Shown in pieces: positions 38,445 through 59,253 of a DNA stretch of 64,000 nt. Below the pieces are notes generated by a model that saw only the letters and a program-made list of their open reading frames with translations, was not told the DNA's origin and made no database searches. How positions within the stretch are numbered: position 1 is the first letter of the stretch; each line of letters opens with the position of its first letter. Both the position numbers and the translations under genes were made by a program. Source of the stretch: Desulfobacter vibrioformis DSM 8776 (GTDB taxonomy: Bacteria > Desulfobacterota > Desulfobacteria > Desulfobacterales > Desulfobacteraceae); assembly GCF_000745975.1 (NCBI RefSeq), contig NZ_JQKJ01000011.1:62001-126000 (forward strand), in the 5' to 3' direction.

Positions 38445-38765
38445 TATATAAACTATGGTTCGCATAAAATATAACATCAAGTTGTTACAAAAAAAAACTT
38501 GATAGTCGAGTAAAAAAGGCGTAAGTCTGACAAACAGGCCATGAAAATCATAGAGAATCAAATTTTCCGAATCAAGAGCATTCCACGTACGATGAGATAA
38601 ATCGGCTGTGCGAGCTTATATCTGGCATCAAAAAAAACGAACAAAGGCCGTTAGAATAATTTGATTAGCCCCGACGAGGCGTGCCTGACGTAAACGCCTC
38701 TTTCAGATGGGACCTGGGGCCCCCCGCTCTTCGGGTGGAATTCTCACTTGCCCGATTGGATCGAG
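38445..38765 (+). promoter_or_regulatory. Upstream region of the exopolysaccharide run, with a possible structured leader
   Basis: A region of about 320 bases between mtgA and the hybrid kinase. Nested inverted repeats lie at its right end: an outer GCCCC (38668-38672) / GGGGC (38716-38720) enclosing GAGGCGT (38676-38682) / ACGCCTC (38694-38700). The inner hairpin is followed only by TTTC. This could form a folded 5' leader of the long operon, or an attenuator. I could not match it to a known riboswitch class. The left part is AT-rich and likely holds the promoters. Confidence 0.35.
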
Positions 38766-41024
38766 ATGGCAAAACGAGCAGATAAATTAAAAAATAGATG
38801 TCAAGAGGTGGCAATTGTTTTTATCCTCATTTCCCTGGTCTTTATAGGGGGATTGGGTACTTCCCTGTACGGATTTTATCGTTATGAATCTCATATACAG
38901 TTCGGGATAATGTCACAGGATCTTAAGACGACTGTTAATCTTCATCGGAAGATTGCCGACAGCACCTTGAAAGATGTAGCTACAGATCTGATTTTGCTTT
39001 ATAGAGATAGCCGGATACCTGATTTTCTTCTTAATCCTTTAGGCCCCCAGCGTTCGGCTTTGATCCGGTATTTTTTAGATATGGCAGATGTCAAAGGCCG
39101 CTATGATCAGATTCGCATCCTATCGACTGAGGGGCAGGAGTTGATCAGGGTGGACTACAATAACGGTCGGCCCCAGGAAGTCACACGATCCCAGTTACAG
39201 CAAAAATCCAACCGGTATTATATAACCGATTCATTGTGTCTGGCACCCGGCCAGATTTATGTATCTCCCTTGGATTTGAATATTGAACACGAAGAGATTG
39301 AGTTCCCTTTTAAACCCGTGTTGCGCATAGGAACGCCGTTGCTTGACGCCCATAAAACAAAAAAAGGGGTTTTAATACTTAACTATCTGGCCAATGAGCT
39401 CTTTACTCATTTAAAACAAGCATCCCAAGGCAATTTAGGAAGTTTATATATGCTTAACAAGCAAGGTGATAGCCTAATGGGGCCCGATCCAGGTGGATTG
39501 TGGGGATTTATGCTTCCTCAAAATAAAACCAATAGCTTTAATCAACGTTATGCCGAAGCGTGGCAGCAAATTCGGAATAATGAAAAGGGCTTCTTTCAAA
39601 CCGCCCAAGGCTTATTTGCTTTTGATACGTTTTATTTCCAGTTACCTACTCAGGTAAGCCATAAAAACGTCCCCTCGTGGAAGTTGGTGGACGTTATTTC
39701 CATACCGGTGTTTCAAAAATCAATGGATCGGCTAAAAAAAAACATCCTGTTCCTGTTTTTGATACTGTCTTTTATTCTGCTTTGTGTTAGTTGGATGGTG
39801 GCAGACATTGTAGTCGCGCGGCGAATGGCCCAGCGGTCGTTACTTATATCCAAGGCCAACGCCGAGTCTGCCAATAAGGCTAAAAGCCAATTTGTAGCCA
39901 GCATAAGCCACGAGATCCGAACACCCATGAATGCGATTATCGGGATGGCTGACCTTTTAGGTGAAACGGTTCTGGATGCTAAACAAACCAAGTATGTGAA
40001 GGTCTTTAAATCGGCCGGAGAAACGCTTTTAAGGCTTATCAACGATATTCTGGATATGTCCAAGGTTGAAGCCGGTTATCTGGAGATTGAACATATCGAC
40101 TTTGATCTTGACGTGATCCTTACGCATATTCAGGATGTTTTTGCCCACAGGATTAAAGAAAAATCCCTGGGATTTGAGATTCATAAAAATTTTGAAATTC
40201 CAAAAAGACTTATGGGCGATCCTTCCCGCATTGAGCAGATTTTGTTCAACTTGGTCGGTAATGCGGTCAAATTCACGAACACGGGTAGCATCCGCTTAGA
40301 TGTAACTGTACTAACGCCGGGCAGCGAAGATACAGAGAAATCAAGCCTTCTTTTTTCAGTGGCTGACACGGGGATCGGAATCCCTCCTGATAAACTGGAG
40401 ATGATTTTTGACCGATTTGTTCAGACAGATGCAACGGTCACACGTAAATACGGGGGGACCGGCCTTGGATTGACCATCTCAAAAATGCTTGTCACCTTAA
40501 TGGGTGGCCGCATATGGGTTGAAAGCACACTTGGTGAAAAGACGACCTTTTACTTTACAATACCTTTGGTCACAGCAGACCAGCCCCCCAAAAAAGCCGA
40601 TGAAGCGGCAAATGATGTGCTGGATATTAAGGATATGCCGGCCGTCAGGATTTTGCTGGTCGAAGATTCACCGGAGAACCGCATGCTGATCCAGGCGTTT
40701 CTTAAACAGATGCCTTACGATATAGACATTGCCGAAAACGGCTGGATTGCCGTAGAAAAATATATATCCCAAAATTATGACCTCTTGTTGATGGATATGG
40801 AAATGCCTGTGATGGATGGGTATACTGCCACTGCAAACATAAGGGCCTGGGAAAAGGAACATGGGAAAAAAAGGACCCCGATTATAGCTTTGACAGCCCA
40901 TGCCATGGCAGAGCATAAAAAGAAAAGCCTTGACGCGGGGTGCAGCGCCTATTTGAGCAAACCCGTCAAAAAACAAATACTCTTGGAAACTATTCAAAAT
41001 CAAATACAAGACCGGCTGAAGTAG
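38766..41024 (+). CDS. Hybrid sensor histidine kinase with receiver domain, head of the polysaccharide control cascade
   Basis: A 752-residue membrane kinase. TM1 is at about 15-37, a periplasmic Cache-like sensor at 40-320 and TM2 near 325-348. HisKA has the phosphorylated His382 in ASISHEIRTP; the ATPase domain has NAVKFT, ADTGIGIPP and GGTGLGLTI; a C-terminal receiver has Asp677 in LLMDMEMP and Lys in SKPVKK. I prefer the ATG at 38766 (GGA 6 bases upstream) to an in-frame TTG at 38748. The gene heads a co-directional series: HPt, receiver-PP2C, RsbW-like and STAS genes follow. The domain set fits a His-Asp-His-Asp phosphorelay ending on the receiver of the PP2C phosphatase (inference). Confidence 0.9.
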   Translation: MAKRADKLKNRCQEVAIVFILISLVFIGGLGTSLYGFYRYESHIQFGIMSQDLKTTVNLHRKIADSTLKDVATDLILLYRDSRIPDFLLNPLGPQRSALIRYFLDMADVKGRYDQIRILSTEGQELIRVDYNNGRPQEVTRSQLQQKSNRYYITDSLCLAPGQIYVSPLDLNIEHEEIEFPFKPVLRIGTPLLDAHKTKKGVLILNYLANELFTHLKQASQGNLGSLYMLNKQGDSLMGPDPGGLWGFMLPQNKTNSFNQRYAEAWQQIRNNEKGFFQTAQGLFAFDTFYFQLPTQVSHKNVPSWKLVDVISIPVFQKSMDRLKKNILFLFLILSFILLCVSWMVADIVVARRMAQRSLLISKANAESANKAKSQFVASISHEIRTPMNAIIGMADLLGETVLDAKQTKYVKVFKSAGETLLRLINDILDMSKVEAGYLEIEHIDFDLDVILTHIQDVFAHRIKEKSLGFEIHKNFEIPKRLMGDPSRIEQILFNLVGNAVKFTNTGSIRLDVTVLTPGSEDTEKSSLLFSVADTGIGIPPDKLEMIFDRFVQTDATVTRKYGGTGLGLTISKMLVTLMGGRIWVESTLGEKTTFYFTIPLVTADQPPKKADEAANDVLDIKDMPAVRILLVEDSPENRMLIQAFLKQMPYDIDIAENGWIAVEKYISQNYDLLLMDMEMPVMDGYTATANIRAWEKEHGKKRTPIIALTAHAMAEHKKKSLDAGCSAYLSKPVKKQILLETIQNQIQDRLK

Positions 41025-41090
41025 TTTCTAAAAAAACTGAAAAAACCGGCGCGTTGCCGGATTCTTCATTTGAAAAACAAGGAAGGTAAA

Positions 41091-41396
41091 TTGGAATCAA
41101 AAAAAAATATTGTATACGCAGATCCCGATATCAGCGACCTGATCCCCGGCTTTCTCGAGAACAGGCAAAAAGAGATCCAGACCATCAGTGAGGCACTTAT
41201 TAGAAAAGAGTATGAGACCATTCGTATCATTGGCCACAGCATGAAAGGATATGGGGCCGGATATGGGTTTGATGAGATTTCAGACATCGGAGCAGCCATG
41301 GAAAAAGCGGCTGAGAAAGCGGATACACAGGGCATTCAACAAGAATTCATCAGACTTGAAACGTATTTAAAAAATGTTCAAGTTGTCTACAAATAG
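41091..41396 (+). CDS. Stand-alone HPt phosphotransfer protein
   Basis: A 101-residue four-helix-bundle HPt protein. The phosphorylated His lies in IIGHSMKGYGAGYGFDEIS, which matches the HPt consensus (His-x-x-Lys-Gly-x-x). It probably passes phosphate from the hybrid kinase receiver to the receiver of the PP2C protein two genes on. I chose the TTG at 41091 because GGAAGG ends 4 bases upstream; an in-frame TTG at 41070 would add seven residues. A small hairpin CCGGC/GCCGG lies at 41046-41060, between kinase and HPt genes. Confidence 0.82.
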   Translation: MESKKNIVYADPDISDLIPGFLENRQKEIQTISEALIRKEYETIRIIGHSMKGYGAGYGFDEISDIGAAMEKAAEKADTQGIQQEFIRLETYLKNVQVVYK

Positions 41397-41584: not shown

Positions 41585-42793
41585 ATGAATGGAAACAAGA
41601 TGTCGGAAACGATACTCGTTGTGGATGATATGGTGGATAACCGCAATCTGTTGCGGGTTATCCTGAAAAAGCAAGGGTACGAGATTGTGGAATCGGCAGA
41701 CGGGGAAGCAGCCATCGCCACCTGCATGCAAACACTGCCGGACCTGGTTCTTCTGGATATCGTGATGCCCAAGAAAAACGGATATGAGGTCTGTGACGAA
41801 CTTAAAGATAATGAGACAACCCGGGATATTCCGGTTATCTTTTTGTCTGCCAGGAACGAAGCGGCAGACAAGATCCGGGGACTGGAACTGGGGGCTGTGG
41901 ACTATATCACCAAGCCGTTTGACAAAGGCGAAGTGATCGCCCGGGTCAAGACCCAGCTCCAGATTTACAAACTGACCCGGTCTCTTGTGGCGGCGAACCG
42001 GCAACTGACTGAGAACCAGAAAAAAATCGAAGAAGACCTTAAAGCGGCGGGCCATATCCAGAAAAGCCTGATTCCATCGGATGCCCCCAAAACCCGGAAT
42101 TTTAATTTTGCCTGGTGTTTTGTTCCCTGCGAGCATATCGGCGGCGATATTTTCAACTTCCACCATCTGGATGAAAACCATTTGTCGGTTTATATCCTTG
42201 ATGTCAGCGGCCACGGGGTACCGTCGGCCATGGTTACCGTATCAGTCCACCAGCGGCTGCAGCCGGGAATCGGCGGGCTCACCAAACAGATCACCGACAC
42301 CCCGCCCTATTACACCATCGTACCGCCATCAAAAGTGCTTGATCAACTGGACCATGAATATCCCATGGAGCGTTTTGATAAGCATTTCACCATGGCCTAC
42401 CTGATTCTAAATACGCAGACCGGGGCCATCCGGTATACCAGTGCCGCCCATCCGATGCCCGTGCTGGTGCGTGCCTCGGGGGAAATCGAACTGCTCGACA
42501 TGGGAGGATCCATTGTCGGCCTTGGGGGGATTATTCCCTTTGAAGAAGGCGAAATCACGATGCACAAAGGCGACCGGCTTTACCTGTATACCGACGGGAT
42601 TGTAGAATTTTTTAACGAGGCCGGCGAAGCATATGGAGAAGATCGTTTTTACAGCAATCTGATGAAATACAATGGGGAGGCGCTTGAGCAAACTTGCCGG
42701 CAGATGGTGGAATCGTTGAATCATTTCGGAGGCGAACGTAAGGCACAAGACGACATTACCCTGGTGGCCATTGAATGTTGTCAAACAGTATAG
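41585..42793 (+). CDS. Receiver-PP2C (RsbU/SpoIIE-type) serine phosphatase
   Basis: A 402-residue response regulator with phosphatase output. The receiver (8-125) has acidic residues near 14-15, the phosphoacceptor Asp58 (LLDIVMP) and Lys in TKPFD. A coiled coil (130-160) connects it to a PPM/SpoIIE phosphatase domain with metal-binding Asp residues at 188 (GGD), 206 (LDVSGHG), 337 (YTDGI) and 390-391 (QDD). It should dephosphorylate serine-phosphorylated STAS proteins when its receiver is in the right state. It directly precedes the RsbW-like kinase and STAS genes. Similar sets are HmpUWV of filamentous cyanobacteria and SypE/SypA of Vibrio fischeri, both controlling polysaccharide (established). 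Confidence 0.92.
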   Translation: MNGNKMSETILVVDDMVDNRNLLRVILKKQGYEIVESADGEAAIATCMQTLPDLVLLDIVMPKKNGYEVCDELKDNETTRDIPVIFLSARNEAADKIRGLELGAVDYITKPFDKGEVIARVKTQLQIYKLTRSLVAANRQLTENQKKIEEDLKAAGHIQKSLIPSDAPKTRNFNFAWCFVPCEHIGGDIFNFHHLDENHLSVYILDVSGHGVPSAMVTVSVHQRLQPGIGGLTKQITDTPPYYTIVPPSKVLDQLDHEYPMERFDKHFTMAYLILNTQTGAIRYTSAAHPMPVLVRASGEIELLDMGGSIVGLGGIIPFEEGEITMHKGDRLYLYTDGIVEFFNEAGEAYGEDRFYSNLMKYNGEALEQTCRQMVESLNHFGGERKAQDDITLVAIECCQTV

Positions 42794-42835
42794 GGGAGGG
42801 GGGCGGCTGATTTTTCGCCTGAACGGATTTAACCC

Positions 42836-43279
42836 ATGGAATATCAAACCATTGCAATTACCATTGAAAGCCGGATCGAAAATATTTCCCTGGCGGGTAT
42901 GGTGATCAAAACGTTGTGCTCGGCTGCCAAGCTTTCCGAAATGGACGCCTATATGGTGGAAGTCTCGGCGGTAGAGGCCGTCACTAACAGTATCCAGCAT
43001 GCATACGCAAATGAGCCGGGGCATGATGTACAGATTGTTTTTTCTTTGGATGCTGGCGGAATTACCATCAAAATCTGCGACAGGGGGATCCCCCTTGATC
43101 CTCAGATACTGGAACAAAAAAAGATGTCGTCCCTGGAAGTGAATCCCGACGACATCGAGGGCATCCCCGAAGGAGGCCGGGGGCTTGCCATCATCAACGA
43201 AGTCATGGATCGTGTGGCATACACATCTGATCAGGGAAAAAACTGCATGATCATGGAAAAAAGGATTGAAAGCCCATAG
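42836..43279 (+). CDS. RsbW-like serine kinase / anti-STAS switch protein
   Basis: A 147-residue GHKL ATPase of the anti-sigma kinase type. The N box has Glu47 and Asn51 (VEAVTNSIQHAY), G1 has Asp82 and Gly84 (CDRGIP), and G2 is GGRGLAII at 113-120. Such proteins bind and phosphorylate STAS antagonists on serine. No sigma factor gene is in the window, so its second partner may be another STAS protein or an enzyme. The neighbouring glycosyltransferase with two STAS domains is a good candidate (inference). It lies 42 bases after the phosphatase gene and 36 before the STAS gene. Confidence 0.92.
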   Translation: MEYQTIAITIESRIENISLAGMVIKTLCSAAKLSEMDAYMVEVSAVEAVTNSIQHAYANEPGHDVQIVFSLDAGGITIKICDRGIPLDPQILEQKKMSSLEVNPDDIEGIPEGGRGLAIINEVMDRVAYTSDQGKNCMIMEKRIESP

Positions 43280-43315
43280 ACCAACAGCTTGTTCAGTGGA
43301 AAAGGAGAATTTACC

Positions 43316-43648
43316 ATGGAAATACGCAAAGAAACGATTCAGGACGTGGATGTGCTGGCATTGGAAGGCCGGCTGGATGCCTCGTTGGCAAAGCAATTAA
43401 AATCCCAAGTTCAGGATTTGATCGGTGCCGGCCGGATTAACATGGTCGTGGACCTGGAAGCGGTCGACTTTCTGGACAGTTCCGGGTTGGGCAGCCTGGT
43501 GGCCGCACTGCGATCCGTGAACAAACTTAACGGGGATATTAAACTTGCATCCCTCCAGGAACCGGTGCGCGTTATTATCGAACTGACCCGGCTGCACCGG
43601 GTTTTTGAAATCTTCGGCAATGCAGCGGAAGCCGTGGAAAGTTTCTGA
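43316..43648 (+). CDS. RsbV-like STAS anti-sigma factor antagonist
   Basis: A 110-residue single STAS-domain protein. The phosphorylation site Asp54-Ser55-Ser56-Gly57 lies in VDFLDSSGLGSLV, at the same place as Ser56 of Bacillus RsbV. The ATG at 43316 is preceded by AAGGAG; the frame is open 27 bases further upstream without support. It completes the set phosphatase-kinase-STAS. Dephosphorylated, it should bind the RsbW-like kinase and release that kinase's other partners. Confidence 0.92.
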   Translation: MEIRKETIQDVDVLALEGRLDASLAKQLKSQVQDLIGAGRINMVVDLEAVDFLDSSGLGSLVAALRSVNKLNGDIKLASLQEPVRVIIELTRLHRVFEIFGNAAEAVESF

Positions 43649-43695
43649 CGGGTGTTTGATGACGTCTCACCGGGTTGAATCAAGGAGACAAAAAG

Positions 43696-44445
43696 ATGGA
43701 ACCCAATCAAGAGAATAGGGCGCCCCACACCGATTTCTCACAAGAACTCTATCGTAAATATGCCCGGGGCGGTATCCGAATGGCCGGTCTGCGCGCCCGG
43801 TCCTATTTTTTCTTCAAGAAGTACAGCTGGATCGTGGTGGTTGAATCGACCTATTTTATCAAGCGGCTTTTCGATATCCTGGTATCGGCCATCCTGATGA
43901 TTGCCCTGGCGCCCCTGTTTTTGGTTACAGCACTGGCCATCTTCGTCGAGAATCCCGGGCCGATTTTTTACAACCAGGTTCGGGTCGGCAAATGGGGCAG
44001 AACCTTCACCATGGCCAAATTCAGGTCCATGGTCGTCGGAGCGGATAAGATGAAAGACGAGCTGCTGGATCAGGACGAATCCGGCGGCGTTATTTTTAAA
44101 ATGAAACACGATCCCAGGGTCACCCGGGTGGGCCGCATTATCCGCAAGCTATCCATTGATGAACTGCCGCAGCTATGGAACGTCTTCAAAGGGGATATGT
44201 CCCTGGTGGGTCCCCGGCCGCCGGTTCCCCGGGAAGTGGCCGAGTACGAATACTCGGACCGCAGAAGGCTTGATGCCATTCCCGGTATTACCTGCATTTG
44301 GCAGGTGAGCGGGCGAAGCGATATCAATTTCGAAGGACAGGTGAAGCTGGATGTCCGGTACATTGAGAACCAATCCTTCTGGGGCGATATAAAATTGCTG
44401 TTTAAAACGATTCCGGCGGTGCTGTTCGGAAAAGGAGCTTATTGA
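43696..44445 (+). CDS. Phosphoglycosyl transferase (bacterial sugar transferase, polyprenyl-P acceptor)
   Basis: A 249-residue monotopic transferase that starts repeat-unit synthesis by moving a sugar phosphate to undecaprenyl phosphate at the inner membrane. A hydrophobic re-entrant helix covers about residues 58-85 ([15 protein letters not shown]). The catalytic Asp155-Glu156 dyad is in [13 protein letters not shown], followed by [12 protein letters not shown] and [12 protein letters not shown]. It lacks the extra N-terminal helices of WbaP/WcaJ, so it is a small-type (PglC/PssY-like) enzyme. The ATG at 43696 has AAGGAG upstream; a TTG at 43675 is in frame but unsupported. Its stop overlaps the start of the next gene (TGATG). 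Confidence 0.92.
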
Positions 44446-46022
44446 TGAACCGCGAAACCATCATTATCCTTGGCATTCCGATAGACAACCTGGACATGGA
44501 CGCCACAGTGGATCGTATTTTCTCCATGATCGAATCTTTTAAATCAGACAGCGTGGCCCGCCAGGTGGCAACGGTTAACGTCGATTTTGTGGTCAACACC
44601 CTGACCTGGCGCCTGGACCGGATCCGGCACCCGGAATTGATCGACATTTTGCGGCGTGCCGATCTGGTAACGGCCGACGGCATGCCCATTGTCTGGATCA
44701 GCAGGCTATTGGGAAATCCCCTGGGCGAACGAGTCACCGGGGCGGATTTGGTGCCACGCCTGGCCGAACACGCCGCCAGCCAGGGCAAATCAATCTACTT
44801 TCTCGGAGGCAGAGAAGGGGTAGGCCAATCAGCGGCGGAGGCACTTACAAAGCGATATCCCCAATTGCAAATCGCCGGCATTGATTCGCCATTTGTCCAT
44901 GTGGAAAACGAATCCCTGGAATGGGCTGCCGAAGACGACCTGCCTGTCATTGCCCGCATTAATCAGGCAAAGCCGGACATCCTGTTGATTGCCTTCGGCA
45001 ATCCCAAGCAGGAAGTCTGGTTCCACCGCAATCGCAATCGGTTGCAAGTACCGGTATCCATCGGTGTCGGCGGTACGTTCGAATTTATCGTGGGGACGGT
45101 GCGGCGGGCTCCGCCATGGATCCAAAAAACCGGTTTTGAATGGCTGTTCCGTATCACCCAGGATCCAAAACGGCTTTGGAAAAGGTATTTTGTCGGATTT
45201 TTTAAATTTGGGCTCATGGTGCTGCCTGCCATTATGTATCACCGCTACCGGCGTATGGTGGCGGGGTCCGGTGAAGCCGGCGATCCGGATTCCCTTTCCG
45301 GTCATACCGAACCTGTTCAGGCCGAACCTGTTCAGGAAACCAGTTGTTGTTGCTTCAGGATCATCCGGATGCCCAGGCGTTTTGATGTCTCTTTTTTGCA
45401 CGGCAATGGTGGAGGAACGCTGGAGGCACAATCCGCCAATGCACAACTGGTGCTTGATTTCAATGATACGACGTTCATTGATTCTTCTGGGCTGGGACTT
45501 CTTGTGCGACTGTGGCGCCAGACATCCCAAAACACCCGGACAATTTTTTTTCTCAACATCGGCCCTGTCCTTGAAAGATTTTTCAAATTGAACCGAATGT
45601 GGGACCTTTTTAAAGATCATATTTTTTCTGATTTTGAAGAGATCACCGCATCCATGAAAGATGCCGGCACACGTTTACCCTTTTCCTATGCCGTTCAGAT
45701 CGAACCCGGCTTTAACATATTAAAATTATACGGCCGATTGGATGCGGCCCAGATGTCCGCCCTGGATCTGGAGGCAATGCTGAACGACATAAGCCAAAGC
45801 CATGCTATCCTTGATCTGGAAGAACTGGACTTTGTGGACAGTTCCGGGCTGGCTTTGTTCATCAAGCTTCAAAAGCCCCTGGCCCAGGCGGAAAAGCAAT
45901 TGATCCTTTGCAACCCCAAGGACCCTGTCAAACAGATGCTTCGCATCACCCGGCTGACAAAGCTGTTTGCGCTCACACCCGATCTGCCGTCTGCTGAAAA
46001 ACGATTGGAGCAGTCCCTATGA
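44445..46022 (+). CDS. WecG/TagA/CpsF glycosyltransferase fused to two STAS domains
   Basis: A 525-residue fusion. Residues 1-240 are a GT26 glycosyltransferase (TADGMPIVW, FLGGREGVG, GNPKQEVW, GVGGTFEFIVG), which adds the second sugar to a polyprenyl-linked acceptor. A basic, partly hydrophobic segment (245-271) may touch the membrane. A linker with a tandem 15-bp repeat (EPVQAEPVQE) leads to STAS 1 (about 305-395, Asp346-Ser-Ser-Gly349) and STAS 2 (about 412-525, Asp465-Ser-Ser-Gly468). Both keep the serine phosphorylated in RsbV proteins. Located two genes behind the RsbV-like gene. I infer that the RsbW-like kinase may phosphorylate or bind it and so gate polysaccharide synthesis. I know no described example of this architecture. 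Confidence 0.9.
   Translation: MNRETIIILGIPIDNLDMDATVDRIFSMIESFKSDSVARQVATVNVDFVVNTLTWRLDRIRHPELIDILRRADLVTADGMPIVWISRLLGNPLGERVTGADLVPRLAEHAASQGKSIYFLGGREGVGQSAAEALTKRYPQLQIAGIDSPFVHVENESLEWAAEDDLPVIARINQAKPDILLIAFGNPKQEVWFHRNRNRLQVPVSIGVGGTFEFIVGTVRRAPPWIQKTGFEWLFRITQDPKRLWKRYFVGFFKFGLMVLPAIMYHRYRRMVAGSGEAGDPDSLSGHTEPVQAEPVQETSCCCFRIIRMPRRFDVSFLHGNGGGTLEAQSANAQLVLDFNDTTFIDSSGLGLLVRLWRQTSQNTRTIFFLNIGPVLERFFKLNRMWDLFKDHIFSDFEEITASMKDAGTRLPFSYAVQIEPGFNILKLYGRLDAAQMSALDLEAMLNDISQSHAILDLEELDFVDSSGLALFIKLQKPLAQAEKQLILCNPKDPVKQMLRITRLTKLFALTPDLPSAEKRLEQSL
45309..45336 (+). repeat. Short tandem repeat in the interdomain linker
   Basis: GAACCTGTTCAGGCC at 45309-45323 is repeated as GAACCTGTTCAGG at 45324-45336. 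It encodes EPVQ-A-EPVQ-E in the linker between the glycosyltransferase and the first STAS domain and may vary in copy number. Confidence 0.6.
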
Positions 46023-47533
46023 AAGCATTGATTTTTCCGGCCGGATCGCCTGATCGCCTGGCCCCCATGACCCAGTGGATGCCCGAAGCCCTGCTGCCCA
46101 TTGCCAACAAACCAATGGTGGCGCACCTACTGGAACTGTTGGCGCGCAGTGATGTGCGTCAGGCTGTCATGGCGGTGCATCATATGCCCTATGAAACCGA
46201 ATCCTATTTTGGCCGGGGAGAACGGTGGGGCCTGGATATTTCGTATTGCCTGCTAAAGCAGGCGGGGAATCTGTCCAAGGTATTAAAGCGCGCATGGTCG
46301 CAGATTCAAGATGATGTAATGATTCTGCCCGCCAATACCATAACCGATCTTTCGCTTTCAGCGCTGGCTCAGATCCATGCGCAAAGCCAGACCGATTTAA
46401 CCTTGTCCATGGTTCGATCCAAAGCACAAAAAGATAAGGTGGTTGCCCTTACCGATGAAATGCCCGGCAGCGGTGCACTCTTGGGAACGGCGGTGCTTTC
46501 TGTTGATGGGGCAATGCTGGCCATGGCCGAACCATCTATCATGGATATGACCGGTCTTGCCCGTCAATTCCGTGAACATGGACGAAGCAGCGTAGTCTAT
46601 CATACCGACTTCACCATGAAAACAATTGAATCCCCAGGCGATTACCTGGCGGCAAACCAATTAGCCCTCAGGGGAGCGTTTAACGGATTGATTTTACCCG
46701 GCGAAGAGGTGAGAACCGGGATACGGGCCGGGATAGGGGCACGGATTCATCCGCAGTGCAAACTCGTTGGCCCGGCAAGCCTTGGGAACAGTTGCGGCCT
46801 CAGCCGGGATGCGGTCATCGGCCCGGACGCGGTCATCGGTGAAAAGGTGGTGGTCGACCGGGGCGCTGTGGTAGAGAACAGTGTAATTTTTCCCAATACC
46901 TATGTCGGCTCTCATACCGAGGTCCAAAACTCGGTCATCTGGAAAAAATCAATGTTCAACGTAAAACGGGGTGTCGAAGTGTATGTGGAAGATGACATCA
47001 TCCTGGGCGACATGGACAAACCGTTTCTGGCCAATCAATTGGATCGGGCCTTTAACCTGGCCACGGGGTTATTTTTCACGCTTTGTGCATTCCCGTTATG
47101 GGGCGTATGCTTTCTCTACCATCTGGTCTTTCCGGGCAAAGCGTTTTTTCAGACTGAAATTCGCTACGGCAAATATGAAGTCAGCAATCTTCAAGGCGCG
47201 GTGCAACCCAGGCCGTTTGTTCATTATACGTTTCAAAGCCGTCACTGGTGGATCCGTAAACTGCCCGGCTTGTTCAATGTGATCAAAGGGGAGATGAGCA
47301 TGGTGGGAAATGCGCCGTTGAGCAGTGAGCAATTAGACCTTTTGGACGAGGAGTGGCAAACCCTGCGGGCAAAAGCGCCGGTAGGGTTGTTTCATTTATG
47401 GGAAGCTGAAGGCCAGCCAAACCCGTCCTGGGACGAACAACTGGTTTCCGAAGCCTATTATGCCGGAAGTCGCACGATGTGGGGCGATGTCGGAATTCTG
47501 TTGAAATGCCTGATGCCTAAAAAACGAGCCTGA
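46019..47533 (+). CDS. Degenerate nucleotidyltransferase - beta-helix - sugar-transferase-like fusion
   Basis: A 504-residue fusion that starts inside the previous gene (ATGA overlap). Residues 1-225 resemble sugar-1-phosphate nucleotidyltransferases, but the Gly-rich loop reads FPAGSPDRLAPMT in place of GG-x-GTR, and the PK motif is Pro-Glu (MPEALLPIANKPM). Residues 230-330 are left-handed beta-helix hexapeptides (AVIGPDAVIGEKVVV). Residues 340-504 resemble a phosphoglycosyl transferase with one hydrophobic stretch, but the catalytic Asp-Glu is replaced by Arg413-Lys414 (IRKLPGLFNVIKGEMSMVG). Both active sites thus look lost, so a scaffold or regulatory role on the membrane beside the intact transferase is plausible (inference). 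A true enzyme with altered chemistry cannot be excluded. Confidence 0.82.
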   Translation: MKALIFPAGSPDRLAPMTQWMPEALLPIANKPMVAHLLELLARSDVRQAVMAVHHMPYETESYFGRGERWGLDISYCLLKQAGNLSKVLKRAWSQIQDDVMILPANTITDLSLSALAQIHAQSQTDLTLSMVRSKAQKDKVVALTDEMPGSGALLGTAVLSVDGAMLAMAEPSIMDMTGLARQFREHGRSSVVYHTDFTMKTIESPGDYLAANQLALRGAFNGLILPGEEVRTGIRAGIGARIHPQCKLVGPASLGNSCGLSRDAVIGPDAVIGEKVVVDRGAVVENSVIFPNTYVGSHTEVQNSVIWKKSMFNVKRGVEVYVEDDIILGDMDKPFLANQLDRAFNLATGLFFTLCAFPLWGVCFLYHLVFPGKAFFQTEIRYGKYEVSNLQGAVQPRPFVHYTFQSRHWWIRKLPGLFNVIKGEMSMVGNAPLSSEQLDLLDEEWQTLRAKAPVGLFHLWEAEGQPNPSWDEQLVSEAYYAGSRTMWGDVGILLKCLMPKKRA

Positions 47534-47536
47534 ACC

Positions 47537-49369
47537 ATGGAAAATCAAAGGATAAAGGTGTCTGATCAACGTCCCGTATCCCCGTCAGGCGACAGCATCA
47601 CAACGGGGATGGCGGTGGGGATGCTGACTACATTCGTACACCTGGTCAGCAGGCTGCTGCTTGTGCCTTTGATCCTTCATTTTGTCCCCATGGCCCATTA
47701 CGGCCTTTGGACCATCTGTTTTGTCATTCTTTCCTATGCCGGTATGAGTGCTTTTGGGATTCAAAATGCGTATATCAAATATGTGGCAAAATATTGGTCC
47801 CTTGGGGACCGAAACGCCATTAACATCCTCATTTCCACCGGCCTTACCGTCATGGGGATTGCCTCTTTGTTGATTTATTTTACCATCAGCTTAGGCGTTC
47901 CGCTTATCTTGGGACTCTTTCATGTGGAAAAACAGATGCATGCCCTGGCAGGTTTCATGATCCGGGGCACTGCCGCCGCCTTTCTATTGGAAATTTGGCT
48001 GGGCGCCTTTAAGGCCTCTTTGGAAGGCCTGCAGAAGATCACCTTAACCCGCCTGAACTGGCTTTTTGCCACGTTATCAGAGATCGTTCTTATTTTTATT
48101 TTTTTCATGATGGGATACGGGATACATGGCGTGGTCTTCGCCTATATCATCAAAACCATCTTTGAGATGGGCCTTCATCTCATCTTTGCGTTTCGCCATA
48201 TTCCTTCTTTGTCTCTTAGACCGATGCTGAACAGACAAGCCTTTAATGCCCTCTTTGTGTACGGTGGGAAGGTCCAGGGCCTTGGCATTTTAGGACTGTT
48301 CCTCGGCACCTTTGACCGCCTGGTGATTACCGCTATGATCGGGCTGGAAGCGACAGCATTGATTGAGATCGGCCGAAAACTGCCCTTCACGGCCCGGCGC
48401 ATCAGCGGTGCGGCCTTTGCCCCATATCTGCCGGCAGCCTCTTCCCAGGACCATTATTTTGAAAAGGGAAAGTGGCCCACCACGATGGAAAAGATGCGAA
48501 AATACAGTGCCCTGTTTACCATCGGCCTGATCATCGCGGCATGGGGGATGGTGCCCTGGGGGGGCAGCGTTTTACAGGACGCGTTTCAACAAGGAAAGTT
48601 TTTTTCAACCCCCTGGGGATGGTTGCTGGCCGGTGCTGTGCTGTTTTCCGTCTATCCGGGGATTTCCCTTGTCAAGTGGGCTTACCGCTTTGTCCGGCAT
48701 GGGGAGACGCTGTGTTCAGATACCATTCGTGATCTCTATCTTTCCGGGTCTGGTCAGATCAACCTCATCAACGGGATTATTTACGGCTACTTGATTGCAG
48801 CAGCCCCCCAACTGCTTTTTGCCTGGGTGGGTCCGGAGGGGACAAAAGCTTACACCATTACCATTATTATTGCAGCGGCAACCGTGATTCATTTAACGAC
48901 CGGCATTGGCACAGCCATCTTAAAAGGGGTTGACCGTACCGGCAGGGAGCTGGAATACACCTTGATCCAACTGGCTCTGGCCCTGGTGTGGATTCCGGGA
49001 TTTGCCGCTTACGGCGGGCTCATGGGAGCCGTATGGGGTACTGCTTTAAGCCTGATCATCCCTTCTGTTTTTTTCGTTTGGCGGGGAAACGTTTTTTTTC
49101 AAGTCTCCTTTTCCTTGTATGTCAAAAAAAACATACGTCCCTGCCTGGCGCCTGTTTCAGCGGCCGTATTGATTGCCGCACTGCTTGGGTTGATGCCGCC
49201 CCTTTCCAGGTGGTTCACCCTCCTTGAAGTGATGATTGCAGGGCTTTTTTACCTTTTGATGACGGCTGTCTTTTTAAAATTATGGATCTTCACCGATGAT
49301 GAGTGGCAAAAAATCATCTCGCCATTGGGGAAGATCAAAGCAAAATTTTTACCGAGGGTTATGCCATGA
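47537..49369 (+). CDS. Polysaccharide flippase, MOP superfamily (Wzx-like)
   Basis: A 610-residue membrane protein with about fourteen hydrophobic segments that should move the lipid-linked repeat unit across the inner membrane. The N-terminal half (HLVSRLLLVPLILHFVPMAHYGLWT) has the polysaccharide-synthesis pattern of Wzx/RfbX. It is longer than most Wzx proteins (about 420-500), with an inserted amphipathic stretch around residues 300-425 and a C-terminal cytoplasmic extension. It starts 3 bases after the previous stop and ends in an ATGA overlap with a tiny frame. Confidence 0.85.
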   Translation: MENQRIKVSDQRPVSPSGDSITTGMAVGMLTTFVHLVSRLLLVPLILHFVPMAHYGLWTICFVILSYAGMSAFGIQNAYIKYVAKYWSLGDRNAINILISTGLTVMGIASLLIYFTISLGVPLILGLFHVEKQMHALAGFMIRGTAAAFLLEIWLGAFKASLEGLQKITLTRLNWLFATLSEIVLIFIFFMMGYGIHGVVFAYIIKTIFEMGLHLIFAFRHIPSLSLRPMLNRQAFNALFVYGGKVQGLGILGLFLGTFDRLVITAMIGLEATALIEIGRKLPFTARRISGAAFAPYLPAASSQDHYFEKGKWPTTMEKMRKYSALFTIGLIIAAWGMVPWGGSVLQDAFQQGKFFSTPWGWLLAGAVLFSVYPGISLVKWAYRFVRHGETLCSDTIRDLYLSGSGQINLINGIIYGYLIAAAPQLLFAWVGPEGTKAYTITIIIAAATVIHLTTGIGTAILKGVDRTGRELEYTLIQLALALVWIPGFAAYGGLMGAVWGTALSLIIPSVFFVWRGNVFFQVSFSLYVKKNIRPCLAPVSAAVLIAALLGLMPPLSRWFTLLEVMIAGLFYLLMTAVFLKLWIFTDDEWQKIISPLGKIKAKFLPRVMP

Positions 49370-49443
49370 ACCAACTCAGCGACAATCATCAGGAGCCTTT
49401 CGCCATCCATACATGTCCAGGCTGCCAGTCTAAAATTTCTTAA
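49366..49443 (+). CDS. Tiny ORF with a CPGC motif (possible truncated gene)
   Basis: A 25-residue frame whose ATG overlaps the flippase stop (ATGA), the same coupling used between other genes of the operon. It ends in HTCPGCQSKIS and stops just before the next glycosyltransferase ribosome site. The Cys-x-x-Cys is half of a zinc ribbon. It may be a real micropeptide or the 5' stump of a deleted gene such as a methyltransferase beginning with a zinc ribbon. No homologue can be named. Confidence 0.35.
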   Translation: MNQLSDNHQEPFAIHTCPGCQSKIS

Positions 49444-49459
49444 TAGTAAGGGGAACACA

Positions 49460-50626
49460 ATGGACATTGATTGCGTCATCATTGGTGTAAATTCCGAAAA
49501 AACCCTCGGCGATTGTATTCAAAGCATCATTAACAGTGAATATACCCAGGGCCGGCTGCATATTTACTATGTGGACGGCGGCTCCACGGACAACAGCGTT
49601 GCCGTTGCATCCGCCTTTGGTCAAGTGATTGTGATTCAGTTAAATCCTGAATATCCAACCCCGGGGTTAGGAAGAAATGCAGGCTGGAAAAAAGGCGTAT
49701 CCCCCCTTGTCCATTTTTTTGACTCCGACATTGTCGTTGATCCCGGCTGGATAGAAAAAGCTGCCAACGCAATGAAAGGCAACATCGGTGCGGTAAGAGG
49801 CAATCTTAACGAGCGATACCCCCAAGCCTCCATTTTCAACTGGATCGGCGAATTGGAATGGAATGCACCGCCGGGCAAATGTGACAGCTTTGGCGGCATC
49901 GTCATGCTCCGCCGCGCTATTTTAGAAAAGACCGGTGGGTATGACGAAGTGCTTGTTGCAGGAGAAGATCCCGAGTTGAGCCAGAGAGTTAAATTCCTGG
50001 GCTGGGATATCCTCCACCTTGATGAGCCCATGTGCAGCCACGACCTTGCCATGATGAAGGTAAGACAATATTGGAAACGCGCATATCGAACAGGTTATGG
50101 GTATGCAGCAGTCGTATTAAGACTGCTTGTGATGAGGCTGAAACGGTTTGCGGCAAAAGGCATTGGAAAAAAGTTAATACAGCGGGCACAAAAAATTTCA
50201 GGCAGGCCGCTGATGCAGACCGGATTAAACGACACGGATGGCACGGCTGAAATATCCTTTAACAATTTCTGGCTCTATGAGTGCATACGCATTAAAATTC
50301 GCGGGGGAGGATTTGTTTTTTTTACCCTGCTCTCTATCCTGCTTCTGCCATGGGCTGTTCAGTCAAAAGGTATGGCCGGGTTAATGATCCTCATGGAGAC
50401 CTTGGCGCTCTTACTTTTGTTTTATCCGCTTTTTTTCAGAATCTCATGGTTCATGGCAGATAAAAAATTAGATCGCGCCAAGGCTGAAATTTATGCAACC
50501 CATTGCTCTCTTGTTGTCATTCCTGAATATTTCGGAATGCTGCGTTTTTTTGCAGGCCTTATATTTAACAAACCGTTAAAAAATAAACGGGCCAGGTTGG
50601 GAACGGGCGTATCTAAAAAAATATGA
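49460..50626 (+). CDS. GT2-family glycosyltransferase with C-terminal membrane segments
   Basis: A 388-residue GT-A transferase. The nucleotide-sugar pocket begins with VIIGVNSEKTLGDCIQSI, followed by VDGGSTDNS and the DSD metal motif in HFFDSDIVVDPGW; GEDPELSQRVKFLG matches the acceptor-side ED motif. Two hydrophobic helices (about 285-350) anchor it to the inner membrane. The predicted role is adding a sugar to the lipid-linked repeat unit. An AGTAAGGGG ribosome site lies upstream. Confidence 0.88.
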   Translation: MDIDCVIIGVNSEKTLGDCIQSIINSEYTQGRLHIYYVDGGSTDNSVAVASAFGQVIVIQLNPEYPTPGLGRNAGWKKGVSPLVHFFDSDIVVDPGWIEKAANAMKGNIGAVRGNLNERYPQASIFNWIGELEWNAPPGKCDSFGGIVMLRRAILEKTGGYDEVLVAGEDPELSQRVKFLGWDILHLDEPMCSHDLAMMKVRQYWKRAYRTGYGYAAVVLRLLVMRLKRFAAKGIGKKLIQRAQKISGRPLMQTGLNDTDGTAEISFNNFWLYECIRIKIRGGGFVFFTLLSILLLPWAVQSKGMAGLMILMETLALLLLFYPLFFRISWFMADKKLDRAKAEIYATHCSLVVIPEYFGMLRFFAGLIFNKPLKNKRARLGTGVSKKI

Positions 50627-50660
50627 TTACGGCGATATTACATCCACAGGGAAAACCATC

Positions 50661-51908
50661 ATGGCAGATTCAAAAACGTTAGCGCATACATCACAGGCAA
50701 ACGGATTAAAACTTGGCTATCTTTCCAGCGAATACCCCGGTATTTCCCACACATTCATATTCAGGGAGATAAAGACGCTGAGAGAACAGGGAATTTCTGT
50801 GTTTACCGCGTCTATCCGGAAACCTGCCCACATAGATAAAATGACATCCGAAGAGAAAAAAGATTCCCAAAACACGATTTACATAAAAAGTTCGTCCATT
50901 CCACACATAATAGCCAGCCACAGGTCTTTGATAAAAAAGAGTTTCAAAAGCTATCTGGCCATGCTGGCCAAGTCGGCTTCATTTACCGTTAAAGCGCCCC
51001 ACTCCGTTCTCAAAGGGATCGGATATTTTATTGAAGCGGGAATTTTGTTGTCCTGGATGCATAAAACCGGTTTAAATCATGTACATGTCCATTTTGCCAA
51101 TCCGGCGGCAACGGTGGCAATGGTTGCCTCCTGTTTCGGCACGATATCCTTTAGTGTGAGTGTGCATGGACCGGATATATTCTACAATGTCGATACGGCA
51201 CTGCTTGTCCAAAAGGTAAAACGCGCTAAACGGATCAGATGCATAAGTCTTTACTGCAGAAGCCAGTTGATGCGAATCATACCCTACAGCATGTGGGAAA
51301 AGCTTGATATTGTAAGGTGCGGCATTGATCCGGACACATTTTCACCCAGGCCCGAACCTGACAACGAAATTCCTGAAATTTTATGTGTCGGGCGCCTTGT
51401 GCCGGCCAAAGGCCAGCACATTCTTTTATCGGCCTGCGGTCTGTTAAAAAAACGCGGCATTCAATTTTCCCTTGTTTTTGTGGGCGATGGAGAAGATCGC
51501 CCATCGCTGGAACATCTGGCTCAACAGCTGGGTATTAACAATCAGGTTACGTTCACAGGCGCCATAGGGCAAGACCAGGTGGTTCAATATTATAACAGGG
51601 CTGATATCTTCGCCCTGGTCAGTTTTGCAGAAGGGGTGCCTGTGGTGCTTATGGAGTCCATGGCCAAGCAGGTTCCCTGTGTCTCAACAAATATTACAGG
51701 CATACCTGAACTCATTGAAAATTCAAAAACCGGGATGTTGTTACAACCCTCGGATGTTAAAGGGCTTGCCCATGCACTTGAAATCCTTATCGCGGACAAA
51801 GAATTGAGGATAGAGCTTGGCAAACAAGGCCGTACCAAGGTTATTGAGTATTACAACCTCTCCGCCAACTGCCGGATGATGGCCGGTTTTTTCAAAAACT
51901 TTTTATAG
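50661..51908 (+). CDS. GT4-family glycosyltransferase
   Basis: A 415-residue GT-B transferase with a retaining mechanism by family. The N-domain has EYPGISHTFIFREIKTL, a form common in polysaccharide colanic-type GT4 enzymes. The C-domain has LCVGRLVPAKGQ and FAEGVPVVLMESMAKQVPCV, the Glu-x7-Glu donor motif. It lies between the GT2 gene and the acyltransferase with short gaps. Confidence 0.9.
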   Translation: MADSKTLAHTSQANGLKLGYLSSEYPGISHTFIFREIKTLREQGISVFTASIRKPAHIDKMTSEEKKDSQNTIYIKSSSIPHIIASHRSLIKKSFKSYLAMLAKSASFTVKAPHSVLKGIGYFIEAGILLSWMHKTGLNHVHVHFANPAATVAMVASCFGTISFSVSVHGPDIFYNVDTALLVQKVKRAKRIRCISLYCRSQLMRIIPYSMWEKLDIVRCGIDPDTFSPRPEPDNEIPEILCVGRLVPAKGQHILLSACGLLKKRGIQFSLVFVGDGEDRPSLEHLAQQLGINNQVTFTGAIGQDQVVQYYNRADIFALVSFAEGVPVVLMESMAKQVPCVSTNITGIPELIENSKTGMLLQPSDVKGLAHALEILIADKELRIELGKQGRTKVIEYYNLSANCRMMAGFFKNFL

Positions 51909-51915
51909 GGTTTAC

Positions 51916-53037
51916 ATGCGTATTCAATGGCTTGACAATTTAAGGGCAATCGGCATATTTTTCGTGGTTCTTGGCCATACACCGGGTCTGCCCGAACCGT
52001 TTGAAAAAATAATATTTTCCTTTCATATGCCCCTGTTTTTCTGGTTATCAGGACTTATGTGCAAGGATAAAATCAAGCAGATATCTTTCCGGGCGTTCAT
52101 AAAAAATAAAGCGTATAAGCTTTTGGTACCGTACCTTTTTTTTTCAATCATCAGCTATGTGTCATGGTTTGTCCTGTTTCGCCATTTCGGGTCCCAGGCC
52201 AAACTGAATCTGTCCCCGATAACGCCCTTGATCGGCATTATTTACGGCAACGGCATTCATCATCTTTTGGCCCACAACACGGTGTTGTGGTTCTTTTTAT
52301 GCCTGTTTGCCACGGAAATATTTTTCTTTTTTATCATCAGACTTGAATCAAAAACACGTATTTTAGCAGCCCTGATCCTGCTGTCTGCAATCGGATACAT
52401 AGATGTCTGGTTAAATCCGCCCTTGCCGGACCGATTCAGATTGCCGTGGAACATTGATATTGCCCTGACAGCAGTCGTGTTTTACGGTGCGGGGTATCTT
52501 TTATCGCCGTACCTGCTCAAAAACAGGTTGAATTTTATTGTTAATTTGGGTTTTGGTATCTGTTATCTCTTTTTTTCGCTCATCAACAGCAAAGTTGCAT
52601 TGGTGGCAGGCGTTTACGGCAATTTCTTTTATTTTTACAGTGCCGCATTTTCAGGAATTTTATTCTGGAAAGCGGTTGCTGAATACCTCAGCACCCTGTT
52701 TAATATGAAATTGGACATCAACACCGGCCAAACGTTCCGAGTGCGCTTGGGGAAAGCCTTTGCAAAAAAACTGGCCCGCCCATGCCGCTTCATTGAAACG
52801 CTGATGTTAAAAACAGGAGAGAATACCCTTACGATTTTTGTTTTTCATTTGCTTGTGTTTCCGCTGCTGACAGCTGTCCAGGTCTATATTTTCAAAATCC
52901 CGGCATCGGTAAAGCACGATTCAATTGTATTCTCTTTTATTTATACGGTGGTCAGCATCATCATGCTGCTGCCGGTTTCATCTTTACTTCAACGATATCT
53001 GCCCTGGTCAGTCGGCAGATTCAAGACGGCACGCTGA
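51916..53037 (+). CDS. Acyltransferase 3 family membrane O-acyltransferase
   Basis: A 373-residue protein with about ten hydrophobic helices. The family signature WLDNLRAIGIFFVVLGHTPG at the N-terminus contains the essential Arg and His. It resembles fucose/sugar O-acetyltransferases of capsule and exopolysaccharide loci. It probably acetylates a sugar of the repeat unit. It starts 7 bases after the GT4 stop. Confidence 0.88.
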   Translation: MRIQWLDNLRAIGIFFVVLGHTPGLPEPFEKIIFSFHMPLFFWLSGLMCKDKIKQISFRAFIKNKAYKLLVPYLFFSIISYVSWFVLFRHFGSQAKLNLSPITPLIGIIYGNGIHHLLAHNTVLWFFLCLFATEIFFFFIIRLESKTRILAALILLSAIGYIDVWLNPPLPDRFRLPWNIDIALTAVVFYGAGYLLSPYLLKNRLNFIVNLGFGICYLFFSLINSKVALVAGVYGNFFYFYSAAFSGILFWKAVAEYLSTLFNMKLDINTGQTFRVRLGKAFAKKLARPCRFIETLMLKTGENTLTIFVFHLLVFPLLTAVQVYIFKIPASVKHDSIVFSFIYTVVSIIMLLPVSSLLQRYLPWSVGRFKTAR

Positions 53038-53101
53038 TTAAGGCTGTCTGTTAAATTATATGGTTTTATGGCCCTGAATCAGCCTTGGGAGAAATCAAAA
53101 T

Positions 53102-54373
53102 ATGATTGCCGCACTATTCAATGTGAGTTGCGTTTTTATATCTCTATATATCGGCATAACAACATGCTATCTTTTTATTTTAACCATTGCGGCATTTATA
53201 TTTAAAAAAAAATCAGGTCCTCCCCGGCAGTTTGACGCCAATATGGCGCCTGATCAATTAACCTGTTTAAACATCGGTATATTAATTCCCGCGCACAACG
53301 AATCCTTTGAGATCGTACAAACCGTCCGCAACATTAAACAAACGCTTAATTATCCAAAATCAAATTATAATATCATTGTCATTGCCGACAACTGCCAGGA
53401 TGATACGGCACAACTTGCAAGGGAAGCCGGTGCCCAGGTTGTTGAGCGTTCTGACCTGTCTGCCAAAGGCAAGGGCCAGGCACTGGATTGGTTTTTTAAA
53501 TCCCATAAATCCATCTATCTTGAATGTGATGCCGTCGTGATTATTGATGCCGACACGATACCGCATCCCAACTTTTTAAATGAGATTTGCCAAAGCTTTT
53601 CTTCCAGCGGCGTTGATGTGGTCCAAGGATTTTACGGCGTATCAAACCCCCAGGCAAACTGGCGCACGGCCCTTGCCTCTGCGGCGTTATCCGTCTTTCA
53701 CCACATCAGGCCTGCCGGCAGAAATCAGATGGGCGGTACGGCAGGGCTTAAGGGAAACGGCATGGCATTTAAAACCAAAATCGTTGACGCCTATGGCTGG
53801 CCGGCATACTCCGTGGTTGAAGATATTGAATATTCACTACAGCTGCTCATGGACGGCGTGCTTGTCCATTACAACCCCGATGCGATCGTGTATGCAGAGA
53901 TGGCTTCCGGTGCCCGCCAGGCCGGCACCCAGAGAAAACGGTGGGAAGGCGGACGGGTGATGTTATTTAAAAAATATCTACCCCCCTTAATCAAGGCTTT
54001 TATAAAAGAGAGAAAGAGCTGTTACTTTGATGGTATCATGGAGCTATTAATCCCTCCGTTATCATTGCTTGTTATGGCCCAGACGGCCATGTTTATATGT
54101 GCCGTGATCACATCCTTATCCACACTGGCCATCTGGGTTTTGTACCCCCAGCTATGGATTATTTTTTTATGCATGACAGTTTTTTATATCTTCTCAGGGT
54201 TGATATTGCGAAAGGCCCCTTTTTATGTATGGAGATCTCTTTGTTTCGCCCCTTTTTTTATTATATGGAAAATACCGCTCTATTTCAGCCTCATAAAAAA
54301 CAGACGGTCAAAAACAACGTGGGAACGTACCCAAAGAGAATCCGAGAAAATGGCTCCAAGGCAAAAAAAATAA
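53102..54373 (+). CDS. Membrane GT2-family processive-type glycosyltransferase
   Basis: A 423-residue transferase with one N-terminal and several C-terminal membrane helices and a cytoplasmic GT-A domain. Visible motifs are IPAHNES, VIADNCQDDT, DADT (metal), NGMAF, VEDIEYS and Gln-Arg-Lys-Arg-Trp (QxxRW). This layout resembles cellulose- or hyaluronan-synthase-like enzymes, so it may be processive, but side-chain addition is equally possible. RBS GGGAGAA upstream of 53102. Confidence 0.87.
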   Translation: MIAALFNVSCVFISLYIGITTCYLFILTIAAFIFKKKSGPPRQFDANMAPDQLTCLNIGILIPAHNESFEIVQTVRNIKQTLNYPKSNYNIIVIADNCQDDTAQLAREAGAQVVERSDLSAKGKGQALDWFFKSHKSIYLECDAVVIIDADTIPHPNFLNEICQSFSSSGVDVVQGFYGVSNPQANWRTALASAALSVFHHIRPAGRNQMGGTAGLKGNGMAFKTKIVDAYGWPAYSVVEDIEYSLQLLMDGVLVHYNPDAIVYAEMASGARQAGTQRKRWEGGRVMLFKKYLPPLIKAFIKERKSCYFDGIMELLIPPLSLLVMAQTAMFICAVITSLSTLAIWVLYPQLWIIFLCMTVFYIFSGLILRKAPFYVWRSLCFAPFFIIWKIPLYFSLIKNRRSKTTWERTQRESEKMAPRQKK

Positions 54374-54410
54374 AATGCAAACCCAAATACCCCACTGCAC
54401 AGTGAATCCT

Positions 54411-57669: not shown

Positions 57670-57679
57670 AGGTTTTATC

Positions 57680-59188: not shown

Positions 59189-59253
59189 CAAAAACATGAA
59201 TTTAAAAAAACGCGACGCCGTAAGCAATTTTTAAATGAAAGGTTAAGTCCTCA

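Follow-up and report, generated by a model that had tools for sequence, protein, structure and literature searches.

A partner-switching cassette linked to a glycosyltransferase with two fused STAS domains in Desulfobacter vibrioformis: a putative switch of exopolysaccharide assembly

The partner switches of Bacillus (RsbU/RsbV/RsbW and SpoIIE/SpoIIAA/SpoIIAB) control a sigma factor. What could be the client of such a switch when its genes lie inside a polysaccharide locus? The question is raised by a locus of Desulfobacter vibrioformis DSM 8776, at positions 41585-46022 of a stretch of 64,000 nucleotides (assembly GCF_000745975.1, contig NZ_JQKJ01000011.1, positions 62,001 to 126,000), hereafter called the window. 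Genes were annotated from open reading frames (ORFs) by Pfam profile match. An earlier note, made from the sequence alone, had read here a receiver (REC)-PP2C phosphatase, an RsbW-like kinase, an RsbV-like free STAS protein, a phosphoglycosyl transferase (PGT) and a WecG-type glycosyltransferase fused to two STAS domains. All five genes are in place, with strong Pfam matches (Table 1), and the three Asp-Ser-Ser-Gly motifs lie exactly at the residues that it gave. We consider it rather probable that the locus encodes a sigma-free partner-switching module acting after translation on exopolysaccharide (EPS) assembly. It would be a variant of partner switching with glycan-assembly enzymes as clients, for which the genomic case is strong and the mechanism putative.

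The REC-PP2C protein contains the motifs GGD, DVSGHG, YTDG and DDIT, and the RsbW-like protein the stretches EAVTNSIQHAY and EGGRG, all of which we take to be diagnostic of their families. The latter is a GHKL kinase by PF13581, yet it stays under the NCBIfam equivalog cut-offs. The DSSG motif, in which the acceptor serine follows the aspartate, occupies residues 54-57 of the free STAS protein and residues 346-349 and 465-468 of the fusion. The WecG domain of the fusion (PF03808, 214.7 bits against a cut-off of 27.4) has the TagA fold, its predicted structure matching TagA/TarA with Z 28.1-28.9, and the solved TagA/TarA chains do not extend over the STAS tail. D78, presumably the conserved active-site aspartate of the WecG family, is kept in 85 of 89 aligned rows; it is lost in three rows of a family called f59, and one row is masked. 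The AlphaFold2 model of the fusion (pLDDT 89, pTM 0.87) places Ser347 and Ser466 at helix starts, and the top fold matches of the second fused STAS domain include SpoIIAA, taken from its complex with SpoIIAB, on a par with other antagonists. Over the 89 rows, the acceptor serine is found in 62 at the first STAS site and in 77 at the second.

The PGT and fusion genes share one base and the fusion shares four with the gene that follows, all on the same strand; therefore, these three genes probably constitute one operon. A promoter and terminator scan gave no clear excess over shuffled sequence. Histidine kinase and Hpt genes lie just 5' of the switch, and the polysaccharide cluster continues 3' to about position 61034. 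The switch genes thus sit, as in the Syp and Hmp types, inside a polysaccharide locus without a linked sigma factor: none occurs among the scanned genes of 38748-61034, in agreement with the earlier note.

Fusions of this kind recur across phyla. The genome_contigs scan was run with two WecG-derived peptide patterns, and among the best 80 of 290 relatives there were 72 WecG-STAS-STAS proteins, three WecG-STAS proteins and five without STAS by profile. The RsbW, PP2C, STAS, WecG and PGT profiles employed here were built from sequences of the present analysis and not taken from Pfam; Pfam spot checks agreed. Within the order (242 genomes, that of the window included), 14 genomes showed a match over WecG and both STAS domains, the 13 others carrying full-length relatives of 31-55% identity, and one further match (G186) was partly masked. 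The phylum search (395 genomes, E 1e-40 or better) gave nine near full-length matches, as well as WecG with one STAS domain in G577, G327 and G430. The hosts belong to Thermodesulfobacteriota, Pseudomonadota, Chloroflexota, Verrucomicrobiota, Lentisphaerota and Nitrospinaceae (single STAS), together with a metagenome-assembled genome (MAG) of Calditrichota; Desulfoluna is placed in Desulfobacterales. Chance or an annotation artefact was ruled out by the occurrence of the fusion in complete or isolate genomes, such as those of Desulfoluna limicola, Desulfocicer vacuolatum, Marichromatium bheemlicum and Chloroflexus islandicus. None of 213 matching plasmid records spans 80% of the fusion, and viral contigs gave just six distant PGT relatives, with matches beginning at residue 72 or later.

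Two variants of the family were observed in passing. In a Desulfoluna MAG (L051:4347-6950 / L104), a GT2 glycosyltransferase is in frame with WecG-STAS-STAS, forming a protein of 867 aa. Marinimicrobia WecG proteins (L147, L150, L154 and L158) carry a tail of about 120 residues that the STAS profile misses, perhaps a degenerate STAS domain.

The search for related fusions and their gene context, which the earlier note had proposed, also revealed a link to the cassette in several phyla. Eighty fusion loci were compared (75 from the scan, the window and four from the order search); controls were WecG loci without STAS, of which three of 40 proved to be WecG-STAS and were removed, leaving 37. Of the 80 fusion loci, 26 have both a PP2C and an RsbW gene within 10 kb, against none of the 37 plain WecG loci (p 2e-5, a guide only, since the rows are related). 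Among loci with at least 7 kb of sequence on both sides, the figures are 18/49 and 0/30. Single matches in controls were counted, namely an RsbW-profile match in a 789-aa protein (L201) and a PP2C (L203); a removed control, L218, has an RsbW-profile match in a 496-aa protein. Nine more fusions have PP2C, RsbW and STAS genes about 15-25 kb off on the same contig (L109, L111, L113, L114, L115, L118, L120, L123 and L124), and for three more (L099, L100 and L105; two Desulfoluna and Desulfocicer) the contig carries RsbW and STAS genes. Most of these twelve cassettes stand upstream, on the strand of the fusion; two, in Geobacteraceae MAGs, are on the other strand. On the same contig the kinase accompanies 38 of the 80 fusions, and a further five genomes have RsbW and STAS genes beside PGT or NTP-transferase genes on another contig, which fits linkage without proving it. 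In two assemblies the sole PF13581 match adjoins the fusion (G651, E up to 1e-7; G195, E up to 1e-8). Of 43 cassette stretches, 36 contain a free STAS gene.

Gene order varies among these loci. It is PGT-fusion-NTP/PGT-STAS-PP2C-RsbW in Chloroflexota and fusion-PP2C-(STAS)-RsbW in Gammaproteobacteria, while in many Desulfobacterales the cassette precedes the fusion; Pfam confirms the order in Chloroflexus islandicus and one gammaproteobacterium. The idea of a full cassette in every linked genome was dropped, since Desulfoluna and Desulfocicer have RsbW/STAS without PP2C. Desulfoluna-type loci contain FGE-sulfatase-domain genes between RsbW and STAS (L076:11463-12986, L077:15691-17253 and L091:3941-5440), with no PP2C found nearby. 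In Candidatus Chloroploca mongolica (L244, G644), a 249-aa ORF matches both the RsbW and the STAS profiles, a possible kinase-substrate fusion; it adjoins a second STAS gene and a gene for a 1011-aa PP2C protein.

The two acceptor serines are kept together mainly where the kinase is linked. Both are present in 33 of the 38 fusions with linked RsbW, and at least one in 37, compared with 4 and 13, respectively, of 17 fusions without it; this comparison covers 55 of the 80 loci, the 17 being the analyst's choice and including some (L098, L107, L110 and L127) where an assembly break may hide the link. The remaining 25 loci were left unclassed on account of short contigs, single-STAS forms, no genome-wide check or a cassette on another contig (five). 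The kept serine as a predictor of linked RsbW (Fisher p 9e-6) was dropped as proof, the rows not being independent of kinship.

The RsbW proteins of EPS cassettes cluster in a tree (41 rows plus 15 others, with 4 label changes against 13.4 in shuffles). In the STAS tree, which has many weak forks, STASa, STASb and the linked free STAS proteins for the most part form groups of their own; the Chloroflexota copies stand apart, and the free STAS protein of the window groups with those of other EPS cassettes.

STAS domains are also fused to the PGT. In five of five gammaproteobacterial genomes examined (L121, L122, L128, L129 and L130), a STAS domain with the acceptor serine kept is joined to the PGT N-terminus. 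Four of them have the fusion, PP2C and RsbW, with no free STAS in the stretch examined (at best 10 kb a side, two contigs being shorter than 4 kb); in the fifth, the contig stops 543 bases past the fusion, and a search of the assembly at E 1e-7 gave no RsbW. The fused STAS as the sole STAS of gammaproteobacterial systems was ruled out, a whole-genome search having found STAS-PGT and also free-standing STAS proteins elsewhere in those genomes. The structure model of STAS-PGT reached a pLDDT of 48, from an alignment of just five rows. Of the 36 cassette stretches having free STAS, 12, the window among them, show such a gene immediately 5' of the PGT gene, and a short PGT gene overlaps the fusion or ends at most 400 bases before it in 26/80 loci. 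Therefore, both PGT and WecG are tied to STAS domains, and, given the STAS-PGT fusions elsewhere, the free STAS protein may have the adjacent PGT as its target.

In the proposed mechanism, the hybrid kinase and the Hpt protein would signal to REC-PP2C. The RsbW-like kinase would phosphorylate Ser55 of the free STAS protein and Ser347 and Ser466 of the fusion, and the PP2C would strip those phosphates. The free STAS protein would act on or with the PGT encoded next door, and WecG would be controlled in cis by the STAS domains fused to it. Lipid-linked repeat-unit synthesis would thus be under the control of the switch at its first two steps, PGT and WecG being, from what these families do, the first two enzymes of the pathway. 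By analogy with SypA, the active form would be the unphosphorylated one. Phosphorylation and binding may gate either catalysis or the formation of a PGT-WecG complex; the kinase-substrate pairing, the direction of control and the order of the two enzymes are equally putative. The earlier note had proposed that kinase and phosphatase gate repeat-unit synthesis through the fused STAS domains. Its architecture, acceptor sites, absence of sigma factor and cassette link stand, but it overlooked the possible role of the free STAS protein on the PGT that STAS-PGT fusions elsewhere suggest.

In family f59 (L057, L058 and L060, that is, G059, G178 and G195), TADGMP and FGNPKQE are lost, although WecG still scores above the Pfam cut-off. 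Both STAS domains keep their serine, and a single REC-PP2C-RsbW protein is encoded 98-1031 bases from the fusion, with an undecaprenyl-diphosphatase gene in between in two cases (L057, BacA by Pfam; L058, by sequence). Judged from sequence, these fusions are probably regulators built from a degraded WecG, i.e., pseudoenzymes, in which catalysis seems to count for less than the STAS part. The preservation of both STAS domains and of a nearby PP2C-RsbW beside a degraded WecG would also suit a docking or sensing module. Fused STAS domains could bind RsbW at the enzyme complex of the membrane and so signal the state of assembly, with the true output elsewhere (the free STAS protein, frequent in cassettes, or another regulator); the enzyme would then regulate the switch and not vice versa. 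We regard this as unlikely, since in four gammaproteobacteria all STAS domains seen in the system sit on enzymes and no recurring transcription or sigma factor was noticed in the cassettes, the neighbours of which were annotated in part.

STAS domains could alternatively be a passive scaffold that just holds proteins together, unphosphorylated. MlaB provides a precedent for a STAS scaffold within its ABC complex. A Halieaceae-type group of eight loci (L138, L141, L143, L145, L148, L151, L155 and L161), in which the second-STAS serine is kept in 7/8, and two Lentisphaerota would fit this explanation, since they keep the tail without linked RsbW and with one or both serines lost. However, the retention of both serines in most fusions with linked RsbW and the repeated link to kinase and phosphatase make it quite improbable.

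Five sigma-70 region-2 genes are present in the window genome (95.4% complete), none of them on the contig of the window. Classification covered three of them, a FliA-like and an RpoH-like gene, which both score below the SigB/F/G cut-off, and an ECF gene; the other two are the C4 gene (650 aa, RpoD by size) and the C33 gene. The earlier note had named as a refutation the finding, genome-wide, of a dedicated sigma factor as sole partner of RsbW; among the three of five genes classed, none is a SigB/F/G-type over the cut-off. Since, in addition, no sigma factor is linked, the locus is filed as a partner-switch variant and not as a sigma regulator. It is very improbable that the RsbW-like protein serves as anti-sigma factor to a sigma factor encoded elsewhere and has its present neighbours by coincidence: the protein matches anti-sigma B/F models, but under the curated cut-offs (best 62.8 against 145 bits), the three classed sigma genes are of the types just named, and the fusion/cassette link is conserved across phyla.

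Several points weigh against a direct switch acting on both enzymes. PP2C and RsbW share the contig with only 35/80 fusions, the three Desulfoluna and Desulfocicer loci have RsbW and STAS with no PP2C found nearby, an FGE-sulfatase-domain gene separates RsbW from STAS in two Desulfoluna loci, and 6/43 cassette stretches lack PP2C by our own profile. The association between kept serines and linked RsbW could be kinship, with four independent pairs on starred branches, too few to test; L164 adjoins RsbW-PP2C yet misses both serines, and the Halieaceae-type group has no linked RsbW and has lost Ser347 in 7/8. The unlinked RsbW proteins of L084 and L090 branch beside that of the window, while those of L164 and of the L080/L081/L240/L242 group branch apart from other EPS rows. 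Mantel values for RsbW/STAS co-divergence, at first 0.71 and 0.58, came mostly from the fast-evolving f59 WecG; without f59, co-divergence beyond WecG is weak (0.31 and 0.13, with a slightly different regression). The WecG active site of f59 is degraded and, therefore, the role in that family cannot be to gate WecG catalysis. STAS-PGT seems to be rare, the one full-length match among 299 genomes (E 1e-50) being the query itself. Finally, further STAS and RsbW proteins are encoded in the window genome and, therefore, cross-talk is possible.

Known systems resemble the window locus in part. In Nostoc punctiforme, HmpU/HmpV/HmpW likewise combine a phosphatase, a STAS protein and an RsbW-type protein tied to polysaccharide, but the STAS is a separate protein, described as an output with undefined effector in the parts available of PMC6495340 and PMC8256260. 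In Vibrio fischeri, SypE and SypA are partner-switch proteins of a polysaccharide locus; SypA is a separate single-domain protein that SypE both phosphorylates and dephosphorylates, and the accessible accounts describe no STAS-enzyme fusion there, unlike in the window. For both SypA and HmpV, the papers, as far as available, call the target of the STAS output unknown. The window has a free STAS gene as well, and two further STAS domains fused to an enzyme. With the Bacillus switches it shares the same three domain families and a SpoIIAA-like second STAS; the difference is the client, a sigma factor there and none linked here. The earlier note knew of no described example of this architecture. 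No description of a WecG-STAS or STAS-sugar transferase fusion turned up in the literature, most subscription papers and all preprints lying outside the scope, but the portion available of the review PMC8256260 mentions all4160 of Anabaena PCC 7120, a glycosyltransferase with STAS, and the note is corrected on this point. This protein, connected with heterocyst envelope polysaccharide (PMC8256260, PMC4390870, as far as available), shares with the window fusion a STAS domain on a glycosyltransferase but has one, N-terminal, and may be closer to the STAS-PGT fusions than to WecG-STAS-STAS.

STAS domains are thus carried covalently by glycan-assembly enzymes in several phyla, often with kinase and phosphatase alongside, which offers a testable target and supplies candidate targets for SypA and HmpV. 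Tentatively, and with rather less confidence than in the switch itself, these loci could be read together as widespread non-transcriptional switches whose STAS domains form part of PGT and WecG or serve these enzymes alone, one kinase-phosphatase pair directly toggling repeat-unit synthesis. SypA and HmpV would then have targets of this sort as well, and f59 would be a pure regulator (dead WecG plus STAS-STAS) by the undecaprenyl-diphosphatase, control having moved to the lipid carrier. If true, partner switching would not be confined to gene expression but would also control glycan assembly directly.

Table 1. Features of the window locus and its surroundings, with STAS-PGT genes of other genomes
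Feature	Position	Strand	Evidence and remarks
Hybrid sensor histidine kinase	38748..41024	+	Pfam HK_sensor_dom_bact, HisKA, HATPase_c, REC; probable input
Hpt phosphotransfer protein	41070..41396	+	Pfam Hpt E 7e-6; possible relay to PP2C receiver domain
REC-PP2C (SpoIIE/RsbU-type) phosphatase	41585..42793	+	Response_reg E 1e-29, SpoIIE E 5e-38; motifs
RsbW-like serine kinase	42836..43279	+	HATPase_c_2 (PF13581) E 8e-25; motifs; tree
Free STAS (RsbV-like) protein	43316..43648, ATG start	+	STAS E 2e-18; DSSG 54-57; Ser55 codon 43478-43480
PGT, initiating enzyme	43696..44445, ATG start	+	Bac_transf E 4e-68
WecG-STAS-STAS fusion, 525 aa	44445..46022, ATG start	+	Glyco_tran_WecG E 1e-63; STAS E 8e-23, two stretches
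WecG/TagA domain, residues 2-262	44448..45230	+	Pfam; TADGMP and FGNPKQE intact; TagA/TarA Z 28.1-28.9; conservation
First fused STAS domain, residues 303-408	45351..45668	+	AlphaFold2 and alignments; Ser347 codon 45483-45485
Second fused STAS domain, residues 412-524	45678..46016	+	AlphaFold2; Ser466 codon 45840-45842; SpoIIAA-like fold, SpoIIAA Z 17.7
NTP-transferase / left-handed-beta-helix / Bac_transf-like C-terminus, one protein	46019..47533	+	Pfam
Rest of polysaccharide cluster, part 1	47537..61034	+	Wzx-like flippase, GT2, GT4, acyltransferase, GT2
Rest of polysaccharide cluster, part 2	within 47537..61034	+	SLBB/Poly_export protein, AAA_31-like protein, VanZ-like, GT4
ORF at 57680, polysaccharide cluster	within 47537..61034	+	without Pfam match
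STAS-PGT genes, gammaproteobacterial MAGs	L129:10340-11320, L248:1555-2538, L249:2458-3477, L250:2310-3284, L251:1733-2707

With respect to the neighbours of the switch, the gene that follows the fusion in the window, encoding the NTP-transferase/beta-helix/Bac_transf-like protein, is of a kind that recurs beside fusions in Desulfobacterales and Chloroflexota.

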